64,000 nucleotides of DNA from an uncultured bacterium (GCA_902761145.1 CACWJA010000002.1:215369-279368), one strand, 5' to 3'; shown: positions 56,153-63,338, counted from the first letter of the stretch. Translations and numbers: made by a program. Notes: generated by a model from the letters alone, not told the origin.

Positions 56153-56191
56153 TTTAAGCTATCTTGTAGTATCGATTGCTGTATTTTTAGG

Positions 56192-56370
56192 TTTTCCAAA
56201 CCATAATTTTTATTCGCTCTACGCTGCACGCGGGGATAAATTTTTATAGATTTTTTAACGGAAAATTTGCGGTCTCACGCCGGATGGGGGTCTCGCTCGT
56301 CAAATTTTCCTAAAATCTATAAAAATTTTCTCCGGTTTGCTTTATGCTTATAAAAATTAGGTTTGGAAAA
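56192..56370. repeat. Palindromic repeat element, copy 1
   Basis: A 179-bp nested inverted repeat. Outer arms TTTTCCAAACCATAATTTTT and AAAAATTAGGTTTGGAAAA; inner arms AAATTTTTATAGATTTT... and its complement; GC-rich centre with CTCACGCCGG and TCTCGCTCGTC. It matches the element at 62862-63035 with about three substitutions and in the same orientation. It lies between pth and the 3' end of a FISUMP gene and encodes no protein. Nothing else is seen in the 56153-56518 gap. Confidence 0.92.
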
Positions 56371-56518
56371 CTCCGAGACCTGGGTGAGTCAGGGAAGGGG
56401 TTATTTCTGATTGCCATTATTCGAATAGCCCAAATCTATTTGATGTTTCTAGAATAAGGGTGATTGAAGAGCTTTCGCGAGCATTAATTAGTGGTGGGAG
56501 GTCGGGGCGGCGGGGCGG

Positions 56519-58015
56519 CTATTTTACCAGGCAGCGGACCGAGAACCCGACCCTACGATTGCCGTCACTGGCGGAATCCACGTACGACGAATTGATGTAC
56601 AGATTCCTGGCGCTACTGCTATTACCGAGGGAAGTAGAGGACCAGCAGCGGCCGTCGCTGCCTCCATCGCCGAACGAACCATAGTTGTAGAGGCCCGCGA
56701 GCAGAAAGTTCGGAACAGTACCAGGCCCAGCCTGCGTATAAAATCCATCGTCACTTTCCGAAGTAGACGTAGTACTATCTAGACCATACTTATGCGCTAA
56801 TACATAGAAATCTGACTCAGTCTGCCAATTAGCAGCAGAAGTTGTTCTAGAAGTCGGCAATTTCCACCCTTTCGGACAAATACTGTATGGTGCATCTGTA
56901 TTTTCCGTACTAATACCCCTACCGGATCCTAGTGTAGCTGCATCCCACGAATAATACGAATAACAACCCGGGCTGGAACAATTGCTAGTGTTTTTGCCAG
57001 TATTATAAACAAATGAATAGTTATTAGAGTTAAAACCTGCCTTAACAGAAGCTGGTAGTTTTATAGTATTATTCTCCTTAGTTAAGTTATTGCTAGTAGA
57101 GAAACTGCTAATATAACTACTATCTACATCCGTAGAATCCGCCGAGAGTGCAGTACCACCGGCCAAGTTTAGGTTCTTCGTCATCCAGATTTTGCCATCT
57201 TTTAGCTTGGCTATAGTATAATCTTGGTTATCACGCTGGTCTTTCAAAGTATATGTGACTTCGGTAGGCGTAGCGTCTATCATTGCTTGCTTGTCCGTGT
57301 CTGATAAACTAGCGAAATCTTGTAGATATGTGAGATCGTCTATCTTAGGTACATATGGTTTCCCCACCGCATAGAAGGTAATGACATTGTTATAAGTACC
57401 ACTGGCTTGGGTGGAGGCTGAGCGAGCAGCTATCTTGAAGTCTATAGTACTAGGAGTAGCTGGGTCGCTTATATCTAGTAGTGGCTTCGTTTCTGTATGC
57501 GATAAACCTGAGTAGGTACTCCAGCTAGTACCACCATCTGTGGAAGTACTGTAGCCCCAGGTATTGTCTGCGGTGAGATTGGCTAGACTAGCAGATGTAG
57601 ATATACTACTAAATTTGTTAGCTGTAGGTACTTCTGTAGTAGTATTATCATGTACTAAGTCTGATGTATTGTAGTATGGTGCTGCAGGGTCTACACTGCC
57701 TACTCCAGCTGATAATACATAGCCATATGGAGTATTAGATGCTACTGTGACTGTAACTGCATTACTATCACTAGTAGTACCTGGCACTAGATTGTCTATA
57801 GTGAGAGAATCTGTAGATAAGCCTATGGATAATGTAGGAGCAAAGGTGAAGGAGATATCGTTACTGGTACTATAGGATAATGCATTTGCATTATTAGTAT
57901 TTACTATATTAGTAGCGTTATATATTCCTACTCCAAAAACAGTAGCAATACCTAATGTAGTTATTACGCTTGGTATTAGATAGTTTTTGTTGATAGATTC
58001 GTTACGAATCTTCAT
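56519..58015 (-). CDS. FISUMP-domain surface protein with shared N-terminal module
   Basis: ATG 58015 follows AAAAGGAG; an extension of 15 codons upstream overlaps a TATAAT box. The 498 residues have a signal/TM (about 11-35), the shared module (FTFAPTLSIGLSTDSLTIDNLVPG to FYAVGKP, about residues 40-228) and a C-terminal FISUMP domain (Fibrobacter succinogenes major paralogous domain, C-type-lectin-like): YTLKDQRDNQDYTIAKL, IWMTKNLN, YSWDAATLG, ICPKGWKLPT, GRCWSSTSL and VGFSVRCLVK. The tip probably binds a ligand, perhaps carbohydrate. It is related to 28717 in the N-terminal part only, and to the partial gene at 63445 in the C-terminal part. Confidence 0.85.
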   Translation of the reverse strand: MKIRNESINKNYLIPSVITTLGIATVFGVGIYNATNIVNTNNANALSYSTSNDISFTFAPTLSIGLSTDSLTIDNLVPGTTSDSNAVTVTVASNTPYGYVLSAGVGSVDPAAPYYNTSDLVHDNTTTEVPTANKFSSISTSASLANLTADNTWGYSTSTDGGTSWSTYSGLSHTETKPLLDISDPATPSTIDFKIAARSASTQASGTYNNVITFYAVGKPYVPKIDDLTYLQDFASLSDTDKQAMIDATPTEVTYTLKDQRDNQDYTIAKLKDGKIWMTKNLNLAGGTALSADSTDVDSSYISSFSTSNNLTKENNTIKLPASVKAGFNSNNYSFVYNTGKNTSNCSSPGCYSYYSWDAATLGSGRGISTENTDAPYSICPKGWKLPTSRTTSAANWQTESDFYVLAHKYGLDSTTSTSESDDGFYTQAGPGTVPNFLLAGLYNYGSFGDGGSDGRCWSSTSLGNSSSARNLYINSSYVDSASDGNRRVGFSVRCLVK

Positions 58016-58077
58016 GTATGCTCCTTTTATTATATTATTGAGTGATACTACATTATTCATTTACTAATCCCTCTCAT

Positions 58078-58135
58078 GGTGCCATTTTTGTTTGTAAAAT
58101 TAAAACCAGATGAAAATAATGGCAAAAATGGCACC
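58078..58135. repeat. 13-bp inverted repeat
   Basis: GGTGCCATTTTTG (58078-58090) and CAAAAATGGCACC (58123-58135) are perfect complements across a 32-nt loop, in the 387-bp gap between divergent genes. Possibly an operator pair, or a terminator/antiterminator. A TTGACA-TATAAT promoter and several TATAAT-like boxes fill the rest of the gap. Confidence 0.7.
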
Positions 58136-58327
58136 GAGTGAGGTGCTACCTATATAATACATTTGTAATGTTGTACCCTCCCCCGAGGGAAGAGTCAAGG
58201 GTTGAAATATTACGGTATCATGGTGTAATATGTGCATATTAGGAGATGATAATGTTTATGTCTACACTTTTTTTCATAATTGTAAAAAATATGCTACAAT
58301 AATACAAGAAAATGCTGGGAATCGTAG

Positions 58328-58356
58328 TTGACATTGCTTTGATACTATGATATAAT
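58328..58356 (+). promoter_or_regulatory. Consensus sigma70 promoter of sigma-like regulator
   Basis: TTGACA (58328-58333), 17-bp spacer, TATAAT (58351-58356): the best promoter in the window. The leader is about 40 nt with AAGGGAG before ATG 58403. Confidence 0.85.
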
Positions 58357-58402
58357 AGGCAAAATTGACAATATTAACAGTAGTGAGACAAGGGAGAATT
58401 AA

Positions 58403-59431
58403 ATGAATAAAAATGCGGAAATCCTTAAAAAAGCAATCTCGAGCAGTCTTGATATTATCGAGCAAGACCGTGAGAGGGAGATTATTTCTCGACGCTTTGG
58501 ATTAACCGGACACAAAGAAACATTAGAGCAAATCGGCGAAACACTTTCTATCACTAGAGAGCGCGTGCGCCAGCTAGAAAAGGCCATTCTTATTCGTCTC
58601 CAAATTTCCGCAGAGGAAGACGAAATCCCAGAGCTCGCCGCAGCTGACAAAATATTAGTTCGCTATCTTATCGAGTCAGGTCGGATCGCTAAAATTTCTG
58701 ACCTCGCTGACAAAGTCTATGGACGAAAAGCTACTGCATCCGAAAAGGCAGGCATTTATTTTATTGCGACATTTTCAAATAACCTTACCGTAGTAGAAGA
58801 GAACGATCGTTACTATGCCGCGATAGGTATTGCAGAATACGGCAATAGCGCAGCTATCAGAGAGAGAGTAGACGAAATAGTTAGCGTACTCAAGGCCAAC
58901 AAAAAACCTATGTCACTTGAAGAACTTGACAGCAAGTTGGATTATGCTCATCCAGACTATATTGTAGCCATGGCGTCAATATCCAAGCAAATAGCTACGT
59001 TAAACGGCGTGTGGGGGCTAGCCAAGTGGCCAGCAGTGAATCCTCGCAATATTCGTGACAAGATTTTCGTAATACTGGAGAATAAGAAAGAACCAATGCA
59101 TTTTAGCGATATCGCCAAAGAGATATCCGAGTCTAATTTCAAACGCAAAAATGTTACCGTACAGGCCATACACAACGAACTCATCAAGGACGACAGATTT
59201 GTGCTGATAGGTCGCGGTATCTATGCGCTTAGTTCGTGGGGGTACAAAAAGGGAACTATCTCAGATATAATCAAATCTATCTTAGCAAAATCAGACAAGC
59301 CACTCTCGCGTGAGGAAATCGTAAAACAAGTGCTAAAAGTACGCAAAGTTAAGGAGACTACTATACTGCTAAATTTACAGAATAAAGCCTTATTCAAGAA
59401 GATAGACAAAAATTCGTATACTTTAGCGTAA
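58403..59431 (+). CDS. Sigma-region-4-like / HARE-HTH regulator
   Basis: Residues 1-75 resemble sigma70 region 4: ISRRFGLTGHKETLEQIGETLSITRERVRQLEKAIL, where TRERVRQLE is the -35-recognition helix. No region 2 is present, so it cannot act as a normal sigma factor. The rest (about 150-342) holds winged-helix domains of the HARE-HTH/RpoE-delta type: KKEPMHFSDIAKEI...FVLIGRGIYALSSWGY and a similar preceding repeat (KPMSLEELDSKL...GVWGLAKW). This suggests a DNA-binding regulator or RNA-polymerase accessory. It is driven by the strongest promoter here and lies 17 bp before a TraG-like ATPase gene that has its own -10. Confidence 0.8.
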   Translation: MNKNAEILKKAISSSLDIIEQDREREIISRRFGLTGHKETLEQIGETLSITRERVRQLEKAILIRLQISAEEDEIPELAAADKILVRYLIESGRIAKISDLADKVYGRKATASEKAGIYFIATFSNNLTVVEENDRYYAAIGIAEYGNSAAIRERVDEIVSVLKANKKPMSLEELDSKLDYAHPDYIVAMASISKQIATLNGVWGLAKWPAVNPRNIRDKIFVILENKKEPMHFSDIAKEISESNFKRKNVTVQAIHNELIKDDRFVLIGRGIYALSSWGYKKGTISDIIKSILAKSDKPLSREEIVKQVLKVRKVKETTILLNLQNKALFKKIDKNSYTLA

Positions 59432-59433
59432 TA

Positions 59434-59442
59434 TGTTAGAAT
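59434..59442 (+). promoter_or_regulatory. -10 promoter of TraG-like gene
   Basis: TGTTAGAAT, 6 nt before ATG 59449. Confidence 0.5.
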
Positions 59443-59448
59443 ATTTAT

Positions 59449-62400
59449 ATGGAACAAGTCATACATTTTATTTTAATGCCGATCTTTTGGATTCCCGTGG
59501 TGGTGATATTGGCATTTTTAACTTATCGCAATTATAAAAAACTCAATCAGCTAAAAGTCCTAAATGTAGATTCAGTGCTTTTGATGCTAGAGATACCTCG
59601 TACCAACGACAAGAAAGAGCTGGCAGCAGAACAACTATTTGCATCCCTGCATGGGATCTTGCGCGACAAAGGGGAATTAAAAAACAGTGGCGGTGTGCAA
59701 GAGCATTTATCATTCGAGATAGTATCTACGGCAGGGCAAATACGTTTCTACGTGTGGGTACCAAAGGTACTACAAAGCTTCGTAGAAGGGCAGATATATT
59801 CTCAGTATCCTACGGTACAAATTTACAAGATGAACGAGGATTATGTAGATGACCGTACTAAATATCCAGTAAATTACTCTGCGGAGCTAGGCTTAGTAGA
59901 GAATGAGGCTTTGCCTATAAAAACTTTCGATAACTTCGAGGTGGATCCACTAGCTGGTATTACTGGTACACTAGCCAAGCTCGATCCGGACCACTCTGAA
60001 GAAATGTGGATCCAAATATTGGCTCGGCCGATACCAGATGACTGGCACAAAAATACTACGGATAAGTGGGTAAAACGAGTGAAGTCTGGTAAGAAGCTCT
60101 TCCTAGGTGACTTTGGTATAGACTGGACTTGGATATCGGAGGTGGCATTAGCCCTATTTAGACCGCCGGCAGGAGGGACTGGATCCGAGACAACGATCGA
60201 GCTGTCCGAACGAGATAAGAATCGCATCGCCAAGGCCGAGGAGAAGGCTACCAAGCTAGGATACGAAGTAAAAATTCGCCTAGCGTATCTAGGTCAGGAT
60301 CAGGTCGACGCCAAACTCAATATGCAGGCATTGGTCGGCACCTTTAAGCAATATAATTCTACAAATCTAAACGGTTTCAAGCAAATAGGCGGGAGCTTTA
60401 ATCCATCTGATCTCGATGCCTATAAAATGCGACAATTCTCTAGTCGTGGATTCATCTTAAACATATCTGAGTTGGCTAGCGTATATCATTTGCCACATAC
60501 GTCAGTGGAAACCCCTAATATAGTATGGGCTTCATCCAAGACCGCCGAGCCACCAGCTAAGCTACCCGTGCTTACTGGCGACCCAGTGCACGATGAGCAG
60601 ATATCGGCTTTTGGGCTGACAAACTTCCGTGGTATTAATCACCAGTTTGGTTTGCTAAGACGAGATCGCTCACGTCATATGTATATAATAGGGCAAACTG
60701 GGGCAGGTAAAAGCGGTATGCTAGAGCTCTTGGCGCTATCCGATGTATTTTATAATCAGGGATATTGTATTATTGACCCACATGGGGATTTTGCCATAGA
60801 TAATCTTCGTTTCGTGCCAGAGTCCCGCATCAAAGACGTGGTGTATTTTAACCCTGCTGACACTGCGTTCCCGGTGGCGTTTAACCCGCTTGAAGTATCA
60901 GACCCCAGTCGCAAGCCCAATATCTGTTCGGAAGTAATAGGCGTACTAAAGCGTATGTTCGGTGACTCATGGGGGCCTAGGCTAGAGCATATTCTGCGCT
61001 ACACTTTACTAGCCTTATTAGATCGTCCGGAGACTACCCTACTAGATATCTCTAGGCTTCTGACTGACAAAGATTTCCGCAAAGAGACTCTGGAGTATTG
61101 TAAAGATGTAACAGTACTGCAATTTTGGAAACACGAGTTTGGACAATGGAACGACAAGCAGGTGAACGAATCCATTGCGCCAGTACTCAATAAGGTAGGG
61201 GCATTTACTGCTAACCCTATTATTCGCAATATTATCGGCCAGCCAAAGTCTTCATTCGATATACGCAAAATTATGGATGAAGGTAAGATATTGGTAGTAA
61301 ACCTATCCAAAGGCTTAATCGGTGAAGACAATGCTGGCATTTTGGGGTCTTTCCTGGTGACTAAAGTACAGCTGGCTGCTATGTCTAGATCTGACATACC
61401 ACTAATAGAAGATAGGCGACCGTTTTATCTATATGTAGACGAGTTCCAGAACTTTGCTACAGATTCTTTCTCAGTGATATTATCCGAGGCTCGCAAATAT
61501 GGCCTAAATCTTACTGTGGCTAACCAATACGTAGCTCAGATGACGGATACCGTGCGTGATGCGGTATTTGGCAACGTAGGTACCACTATTTCCTTCCGTG
61601 TATCTGCAGACGATGCGCCTATATTAGTAAAGCAATTTGAGCCTACCTTTGAAGAGTCCGATATTATACAACTAAATAATCGTAATTTTGTAATATCTAT
61701 GATCATAAATGGTGAGAAGGTACCAGCATTCTCTGCTACTACCCTCTCGATCCCAGACACGCCTAAGGACAATTTCGACGCCATAGTAGCTCATTCGCGA
61801 GAATATTATGCTAGACCACGTCTAGAAGTAGAGGCTGAGATCCGTGAGACCATAGAACAATCAGAAAAATACAAGAAAGAGCTGTCTGATTCTGGCCGAC
61901 AGGAGGAGCCAAAAATGGTGATAAATACCAATAGTAAGCCTGTATTTAGGCCTGTATCTACGCCGAGTAATTCTGCATCGCAACGCCCTGCTAGGCCTTT
62001 TACTAAATCCGTTGCTAATGCCGAACAAAAACCGAACTTAAGGTATCAACCTACTCCTCAGGCAGATTTCCGCCGTCAGAATATCAGCCCCAACGCTGCC
62101 GAAGGCAAAGAGCGGATGGGATTAAAAGACTTAGCTAAATTAATAGCGGAAGACAAGGAAAACACCGAGACGACAGGAAAGGAAATTACGAAGGAGCCAG
62201 TGCGCATTGAAAAAGAACAGCCAAAGAAGGGAAAAACGCAGAAAAATCGTAACCGTAAGAAGGGAAATAAGAAGTCCGAAAAAGACCCTCAGAAGAAGAC
62301 CAGAGGTGACAAGATTTTGACCGCCACCGGTAATGCAAAATCCACCCCAGTGAAACCAGAGGTAGAGTACCAAGAGAAATCAGTGGTAGAGATACGTCCA

Positions 62401-62499
62401 TCTCATAATTCTCTACCCCTGTCTACCCCTGTTAAAAACACTGATAATTATGCTTCAAAAGATAATTCGGTGGACGGAATATTATCTATCAAACATTAA
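59449..62499 (+). CDS. TraG/VirD4/HerA-like type IV secretion ATPase
   Basis: The 1016 residues start with a membrane helix (about 5-25), a 380-residue N-terminal region, then a RecA-like motor: Walker A GQTGAGKSG near residues 414-422, CIIDPHGDF, PVAFNPLEVSD, Walker B FYLYVDEFQNF near 660, and QYVAQMTDTVRDAVFGNVGT. This matches conjugative coupling proteins and HerA-like ATPases that move DNA or proteins through an envelope channel. The last 170 residues are a Lys/Arg/Pro-rich tail (KKGKTQKNRNRKKGNKK), possibly binding nucleic acid. No other secretion gene is in the window. Confidence 0.9.
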   Translation: MEQVIHFILMPIFWIPVVVILAFLTYRNYKKLNQLKVLNVDSVLLMLEIPRTNDKKELAAEQLFASLHGILRDKGELKNSGGVQEHLSFEIVSTAGQIRFYVWVPKVLQSFVEGQIYSQYPTVQIYKMNEDYVDDRTKYPVNYSAELGLVENEALPIKTFDNFEVDPLAGITGTLAKLDPDHSEEMWIQILARPIPDDWHKNTTDKWVKRVKSGKKLFLGDFGIDWTWISEVALALFRPPAGGTGSETTIELSERDKNRIAKAEEKATKLGYEVKIRLAYLGQDQVDAKLNMQALVGTFKQYNSTNLNGFKQIGGSFNPSDLDAYKMRQFSSRGFILNISELASVYHLPHTSVETPNIVWASSKTAEPPAKLPVLTGDPVHDEQISAFGLTNFRGINHQFGLLRRDRSRHMYIIGQTGAGKSGMLELLALSDVFYNQGYCIIDPHGDFAIDNLRFVPESRIKDVVYFNPADTAFPVAFNPLEVSDPSRKPNICSEVIGVLKRMFGDSWGPRLEHILRYTLLALLDRPETTLLDISRLLTDKDFRKETLEYCKDVTVLQFWKHEFGQWNDKQVNESIAPVLNKVGAFTANPIIRNIIGQPKSSFDIRKIMDEGKILVVNLSKGLIGEDNAGILGSFLVTKVQLAAMSRSDIPLIEDRRPFYLYVDEFQNFATDSFSVILSEARKYGLNLTVANQYVAQMTDTVRDAVFGNVGTTISFRVSADDAPILVKQFEPTFEESDIIQLNNRNFVISMIINGEKVPAFSATTLSIPDTPKDNFDAIVAHSREYYARPRLEVEAEIRETIEQSEKYKKELSDSGRQEEPKMVINTNSKPVFRPVSTPSNSASQRPARPFTKSVANAEQKPNLRYQPTPQADFRRQNISPNAAEGKERMGLKDLAKLIAEDKENTETTGKEITKEPVRIEKEQPKKGKTQKNRNRKKGNKKSEKDPQKKTRGDKILTATGNAKSTPVKPEVEYQEKSVVEIRPSHNSLPLSTPVKNTDNYASKDNSVDGILSIKH

Positions 62500-62548
62500 T
62501 TATTTAGATTTTCAGCCGAAGAGAAACTGATAAAAGGAATAAGCCCTG

Positions 62549-62585
62549 AATCCGAGCTAGAAGCACAAGTCTTAGCTCGGATTTA
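62549..62585 (+). terminator. Terminator after TraG-like gene
   Basis: AATCCGAGCTA / TAGCTCGGATT, an 11-bp stem with a 13-nt loop, followed by TT-A-TT. Confidence 0.8.
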
Positions 62586-62861
62586 TTAATATATATGAAA
62601 AATCGATGAATTTTGATGGAATGCTTGATTGACTTTTCTGTATAGTTTTAATGTCGCACAATACAGATTTTACGACATTGAGGTTTGGGATTTGAGACGG
62701 TTAAGTTATCGTCTATTATAGATAGTTTTCCGCTGGCGAGCGGGAATTATGACAGGAATCGATTCCTAAGCATAGGCGGGATCTTTCATTTAGCTTCTTT
62801 TGTAGCTACAAGTATTAACCCTAGCTATGGATTCAATATATCGAGGGTGAGTCTTGAGGTC

Positions 62862-63035
62862 TTCCAAACTATAATTTTTATTCGCTCTACGCTGCACGCG
62901 GGGATAAATTTTTATAGATTTTTTAACGTAAAATTTGCGGTCTCACGCCGGATGGGGGTCTCGCTCGTCAAATTTTCCTAAAATCTATAAAAATTTTCTC
63001 CGGTTTGCTTTATGCTCATAAAAATTAGGTTTGGA
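62862..63035. repeat. Palindromic repeat element, copy 2
   Basis: A 174-bp element nearly identical (about three substitutions) to 56192-56370 and in direct orientation. It lies in a 945-bp gap between the TraG-like gene and the 3' end of the second FISUMP gene. The rest of that gap is AT-rich: 62586-62861 holds nothing I can support, and 63036-63338 holds a 16-bp palindrome (AAATTTGGCCAAATTT, 63102-63117) and CCGAACA repeats. Confidence 0.92.
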
Positions 63036-63223
63036 AGCCCCTTCAATGCAGCTTCGATTTAGGATTTGGCGGATTTTGGTGAATTTTACGGATTTTTGGC
63101 TAAATTTGGCCAAATTTGCAGATTTTTATCAATTTGATAATTCCCTTTGCTTGTTTCCCTTTTTTATAGTTTTCCCTGTTATTTTTACTATTGCTGTGAG
63201 AATCGACATATGTAAGGCCTAAA

Positions 63224-63293
63224 TTCCCCGAACATATACCGAACAAGAATAGGAAATTATAGAATCGCCCACTTCCCGAACAAATACCGAACA
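63224..63293. repeat. Two pairs of CCGAACA repeats
   Basis: CCGAACA recurs four times, as two pairs with an 11-bp period (63228-63245 and 63276-63293), the pairs 48 bp apart. One-turn spacing suggests protein-binding sites; no protein can be named. Confidence 0.6.
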
Positions 63294-63338
63294 TTTCCCT
63301 ATTAATTGCTGGTAAAGTCAGGCTCACTCCGAGGGTGG

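Follow-up and report, generated by a model that had tools for sequence, protein, structure and literature searches.

Most of what is known about small mobile palindromes comes from proteobacteria and pneumococcus, and no description of such elements in Saccharibacteria or other CPR bacteria was found in the open literature. ERIC sequences (IRU, RU-1) are intergenic imperfect palindromes of about 127 bp, i.e. small, multi-copy mobile repeats; their short terminal repeats are fixed and include TA, and target duplications occur (PMC2229807). YPAL (RU-2) of Yersinia is an intergenic palindrome of about 168 bp with internal inverted repeats and without TA ends; empty and filled sites occur, the targets are near dyad symmetry and duplications of 3-26 bp are made (PMC2229807). 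MITEs such as Correia/NEMIS and RUP are small, non-autonomous dispersed repeats with a long stem, which have terminal inverted repeats in common with a transposase-bearing relative and generate target duplications (PMC2229807). REPs, which go with RAYT, are extragenic palindromes of 20-40 bp downstream of genes and carry a GTAG or CGTC tag (PMC3733652). Integron attC sites have conserved R''/R' boxes at the hairpin base and are served by the IntI recombinase. Here we report on R1, a family of small mobile DNA hairpins that has not been described before and is restricted to one genus. R1 elements are ERIC/YPAL-like mobile palindromes of unusual build, in which a constant core is flanked by arms that are site-specific but matched.

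The window analyzed was a stretch of 64,000 nucleotides from an uncultured bacterium. The source genome, G000, has 872 kb in 11 contigs; its nearest relative is G078. A preliminary description of the window had pointed out near-identical elements at 56192-56370 and 62862-63035, nested inverted repeats in direct orientation and 6.7 kb apart, with the stops of FISUMP surface genes 150 and 410 bp away. All of this was confirmed. The first copy, W1, is about 185 bp long (56189..56373, plus strand; core 56203-56359) and is located between the 3' ends of pth and of a FISUMP gene. W2, of the same length (62857..63041, plus strand; core 62871-63027), is in the convergent gap between TraG and FtsQ; the name of the latter rests on its neighbors murG and ftsW, and Pfam gave no family. 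The two FISUMP genes stop at 56519 and 63445, and the elements are 6.67 kb apart. In BLAST W1 and W2 were 97.3% identical across 183 bp, and the spans as first described matched at 98%. Within the common unit 'AGG...CTC' they differ by four substitutions and a divergent right tip. Each is a nested imperfect palindrome with outer arms of about 20 bp, a perfect 17-bp inner arm pair and a central hairpin. In W1 the outer arms at 56191..56210 and 56352..56371 pair with each other, as do the inner arms at 56238..56254 and 56312..56328 (no strand assigned); the outer arms are common to all five copies of G000 and G078. The predicted fold had a minimum free energy of -72.9 kcal/mol (z = -9.75), far stabler than shuffled sequences (0 of 200 were equally low).

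A search of the source genome added one full copy and one arm relic. The third full copy (C4:41074-41253), 98% identical to W1 as is W2, is located between rsmA and a FISUMP gene; the relic, a left arm, is at C4:89092 beside pheT. All four adjoin FISUMP-type genes. The third copy, however, is upstream of its FISUMP neighbor, thus a location downstream of such genes, as initially noted, is no rule. The three copies reside at unrelated loci and their flanks beyond 'AGG...CTC' are unrelated. An ortholog of the third copy (C4a) is present in G078. At pheT this relative has a full R1 copy, of which the left arm is all that remains in G000; another repeat family comes after it. The relic is evidence for loss of R1. 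W2 is absent from G078, in which the regulator gene is 93% identical and a different palindromic repeat occupies the same interval.

The R1 family was defined by a covariance model of 158 positions and 39 pairs, with which W1 scored 163 and W2 157 bits. With strict filters and a limit on the number of candidates scored, R1 was detected in one Saccharibacteria genus, where at least 69 of 174 genomes have it at numbers of at least 1-15 copies per genome. This genus is Nanosyncoccus-like and from ruminant gut; the regulator gene also occurs in named records, all from Saccharibacteria of rumen or gut and including Candidatus Nanosyncoccus alces. None of 148 other genera sampled was positive, and all 24 positives among 345 genomes of the order belonged to the same genus. 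The unit of about 180-260 bp consists of the conserved core of about 158 bp and variable, complementary outer arms. Flank searches uncovered orthologous element-free loci for the copies at L094, L073, L068, L072, L097, L069 and L077. For L094 the empty allele was in a close relative with flanks about 98% identical; the L073 site was empty in five species, the L068 site in three and the L097 site in three, G000 among them. This demonstrated that R1 inserts as a unit. In the cases read, the empty alleles lacked the core and both outer arms. Hence, the arms are either brought in by the element or made once it has inserted, and an origin of the arms from the target by inverted flank duplication was rejected. 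Target-site duplications, which the preliminary description had proposed to look for, were not consistently present in the filled/empty alignments; a single 7-bp AT-rich candidate was at L077. A tree of 71 copies grouped them by genome (13 label changes versus 32.7 after shuffling, minimum 28), indicating copying or homogenization within genomes. The same positions were filled in several species at pilM, glyA-folA and TraG-FtsQ, a pattern that is also compatible with a functional role. A comparison of L097 with L157 (G000:C2:120670-121260) showed that the insertion parts two genes which are directly adjoining elsewhere in the species compared; between the element and the downstream start, close to the latter, is a TATAAT-like box.

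Probably, then, W1 and W2 belong to a non-autonomous mobile palindromic repeat whose copies multiply inside the genomes of a single Saccharibacteria genus and come to rest between genes, next to gene ends, and the regulator-TraG segment between the two elements is a bystander. In this explanation we regard dispersal, insertion, clustering by genome, loss and restriction to the genus as established. R1 resembles YPAL in size and intergenic location; both have internal inverted repeats, lack TA ends, occur at sites that are filled or empty and have targets near dyad symmetry. It differs in that no consistent target duplication is made, in its outer arms, which are unique to the site yet complementary, in being A+T-rich and in belonging to another phylum. 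With ERIC it shares the intergenic imperfect palindrome and the nature of a small multi-copy mobile repeat, yet its termini vary by site. The general characteristics of the ERIC/YPAL type, an imperfect palindrome of 100-260 bp, intergenic, multi-copy, recently mobile and without known transposase, are all present in R1. Sequence homology of R1 to either is unlikely because R1 is restricted to one genus. Among the three ideas of the preliminary description, MITE-like elements, recombination sites for surface-gene cassettes and structured RNAs, the first turned out to be the best, as a mobile unit is revealed by the dispersal of nearly identical copies, by the empty sites and by the clustering of copies within genomes. 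Like MITEs, R1 is a small, dispersed, non-coding, non-autonomous repeat with a long stem. The resemblance ends at the termini: inverted repeats at the ends are shared only among recent copies (AGTTTTCC) and are site-unique across the family, and neither target duplications nor an autonomous partner with the same ends were found. Similar to REPs, R1 is an extragenic palindrome downstream of genes; at about 180 bp it is far longer, has no constant foot tag and is not accompanied by a Y1 transposase gene. As opposed to attC sites, the base of the R1 stem is its variable part.

Which machinery might mobilize R1? Y1 transposases (PF01797) were absent from all 14 element-bearing genomes searched and were detected in control genomes; accordingly, mobilization by an IS605/RAYT system was rejected. 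G000 codes for a single tyrosine recombinase, of a kind carried by all 15 genomes searched. In G000 the R1 end pattern, with up to one mismatch, did not occur beyond the four known places, i.e. a longer partner with R1 ends was not detected. No transposase was linked to R1 in a search which covered Y1 transposases and tyrosine recombinases. Reverse transcriptases (RVT_1) were encoded in 9 of 14 genomes, yet in none of the contigs of G000, and a link to reverse transcription or diversity-generating retroelements was dismissed. The RVT_1 proteins, mostly about 380-440 amino acids long (G007, G023, G068, G084, G176, G079, G164, G174 and G115), possibly belong to diversity-generating retroelements that act on FISUMP-like domains. 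Carriage by phages or plasmids was discarded because similar DNA is absent from phage and plasmid collections; a single exact 19-mer match in viral contigs, located in a phage contig without R1 match, looks like chance. Possibly, a putative trans-acting function recognizes the folded hairpin and moves R1, and we propose that such a mover may recognize the internal loops of the core, which are conserved.

The stem of R1 is almost fully paired even though its sequence turns over. Across the 71 different cores, 95.4% of the cells were paired. Changes on both sides occurred in 32 of 39 pairs, amounting to 547 such cells compared to at most 86 when the partners were slid. Beyond the core the outer arms formed a stem with a median of 28 bp and 86% complementarity, and 92% of the copies exceeded the 95th percentile of arm pairs mixed from different copies. 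The outer 20-30 bp of the arms were unique per site, even at the orthologous glyA-folA and pilM positions. Recent copies, three in G000 and two in G078, had common arms, and single uncompensated arm changes occurred between close copies. If a single RNA strand were under selection, G-U should exceed A-C on that strand. Arm mismatches were G-T in 55 and A-C in 61 instances. A surplus of G-T in the core originated from three positions, one of them a nearly fixed G-T pair; at all others the counts were 29 and 32. Orientation by the read-through strand yielded 60 versus 45 (p = 0.17), i.e. no significant excess of wobble pairs. With symmetric mismatches and no wobble bias, pairing appears to be kept at the level of DNA. 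Judged from the sequences, arm complementarity thus points to homogenization of DNA by replication template switching and not to RNA selection. Template switching during replication is reported to homogenize the arms of inverted repeats and to invert the spacer (PMC8604942), and also to create and mend stems and keep them paired (PMC8794818). Core orientation at the TraG-FtsQ site is not uniform: G000, G068 and G151 have one direction, G140, G162 and G189 the opposite. Template switching fits these opposed orientations as well as the symmetric mismatches. After insertion the outer arms would diverge from site to site, template switching between them during replication would maintain complementarity, and it could also flip the core as at TraG-FtsQ. 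R1 is a natural test of the way in which long stems keep their pairing as the sequence changes. With about 70 copies, many of which have orthologous or empty counterparts, near-full pairing and symmetric mismatches help to separate DNA homogenization from RNA selection. R1 also is a warning that strong covariation by itself is no proof of a structured RNA.

Could a single larger tandem duplication instead have the two elements as its ends? Their direct orientation at a distance of 6.7 kb is compatible with it. However, the similarity of W1, W2 and the third copy ends at the element boundaries and the third copy is on a different contig; hence the copies are not parts of a larger duplication and this explanation, which would have left mobility unsupported, is next to impossible. 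The second idea was that the elements are recombination sites that shuffle FISUMP surface-gene cassettes. In its favor, every G000 copy including the relic is beside a FISUMP-type gene, and of the approximately 70 copies in the genus the 15 directly adjacent to such a gene all have it on the right of the element. The adjacency label required 10 changes on the tree (13.8 after shuffling), at least five of them forced by well-supported branches; with 5 to 10 independent gains a sign test for the side gave p of about 0.06 to 0.002. On the other hand, some 55 of 70 copies are not adjacent. Further, the direction of the FISUMP gene relative to the element is not fixed, and the three FISUMP sides lack similarity beyond the element end. 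Nor does the intervening segment behave like a cassette. It comprises a FISUMP gene (56519..58060, minus strand; PF09603, Fib_succ_major, nearly full length and below the curated cut-off), a Sigma70 region 4/HARE-HTH regulator (58403..59431, plus strand), which is a core gene in 164 of 170 genomes of the genus, and a TraG/TrwB-like coupling ATPase (59449..62499, plus strand), also a core gene, which adjoins the regulator in all loci examined. In 20 of 20 loci read from relatives regulator and TraG were adjacent, never inverted or absent. The flanking FISUMP genes come and go and the slot at 56519 differs between species. Therefore, the 6.7 kb are an old core dicistron with variable neighbors. 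In G078 a FISUMP gene occupies the first site and the second element is missing. Swapping of surface cassettes is largely refuted and very improbable; R1 is not a surface-gene switch. At the W1 site of G078 (L122:590-810) a different palindrome, very stable with -91.6 kcal/mol across 220 nt and weakly similar to R1 (27.9 bits), precedes the FISUMP gene.

A cis-acting structured RNA or bidirectional terminator, spread by chance and retained for its role at gene ends, would account for the strong core covariation, for the filling of the same slots in different species and for the 59 of 69 copies with two called neighbors in which at least one gene 3' end faces the element. Yet the wobble bias is missing on both strands and on the read-through strand, no Rfam match was obtained and with strict model filters R1 was not detected in over half of the genomes of the genus. 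The mix of neighbor-gene orientations (24/18/17/10) was close to that of gaps of similar size (30/33/33/25); convergent gaps were not clearly in excess and a terminator role could not be derived from gene orientation. Thus, of the structured-RNA idea the covarying stem stood, the expected wobble intermediates on a transcribed strand did not, and we consider this explanation rather unlikely. The crowded TraG-FtsQ gap raises another question. Left of W2, outside of the element, is a conserved non-coding block (62628..62767, plus strand; AATGTCGCACAATAYAGATTTTARGACATT ... AGACGGTTAAGTTATCGTCT), which was aligned in 19 species and marks the equivalent site; repeated CCGAACAAAAACCGAACA-like motifs follow at about 63150-63310 in the same species. 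Two short hairpins without compensatory changes and without Rfam match were predicted in these blocks. Between the two blocks 15 of 19 species had a strong palindrome (score at least 15, shuffles at most 12). Six are of the R1 type and the remainder belongs to at least three other sequence types, i.e. at least four families; in G078 the slot of W2 holds a palindrome of the 'GAGGAACATTAAG' family. The simplest account is that palindromes insert, decay and are replaced at a site which tolerates them; alternatively, selection for a palindrome or shape-guided replacement may be involved. A recombination that recognizes palindromes and swaps them whole at preferred sites, families replacing one another, would be in line with this crowding and with the pheT site, where the R1 copy of G078 corresponds in G000 to the arm relic followed by the 'GAGGAACATTAAG' family. 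But repeated insertion, divergence and deletion yield the same pattern and no enzyme was found, which renders swapping quite unlikely. A bolder proposal, which we deem unlikely, is that the ultra-small Saccharibacteria have a transposase-independent system in which unrelated long-palindrome families would compete for and replace each other at fixed chromosomal slots by hairpin shape, the core loops being the recognition code and template switching rewriting the arms at each site. Spread of R1 as a mobile repeat thus remains the explanation we prefer.

The second intergenic palindrome family, with the core 'GAGGAACATTAAG...CTTCCGAGATG', has about 8-9 copies in G000, many of them near FISUMP genes (L105:2657-2796, L110:338-480, L111:5103-5249, L117:2009-2146, L119:5185-5316, L120:12300-12404 and L121:5552-5655). 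Six copies, as judged by comparison, have a conserved core and variable complementary arms. The FISUMP genes themselves are numerous, with 27 domain matches in the 872 kb of G000 (loci L102-L121) and mosaic similarity among paralogs. Those at L111 and L120 are 89% identical over 822 bp in one part and diverge in others. Such mosaics suggest recombination among surface genes. A 'CCCGCCAAAAT' motif was located beside FISUMP loci in several species and at few intergenic places in G000.
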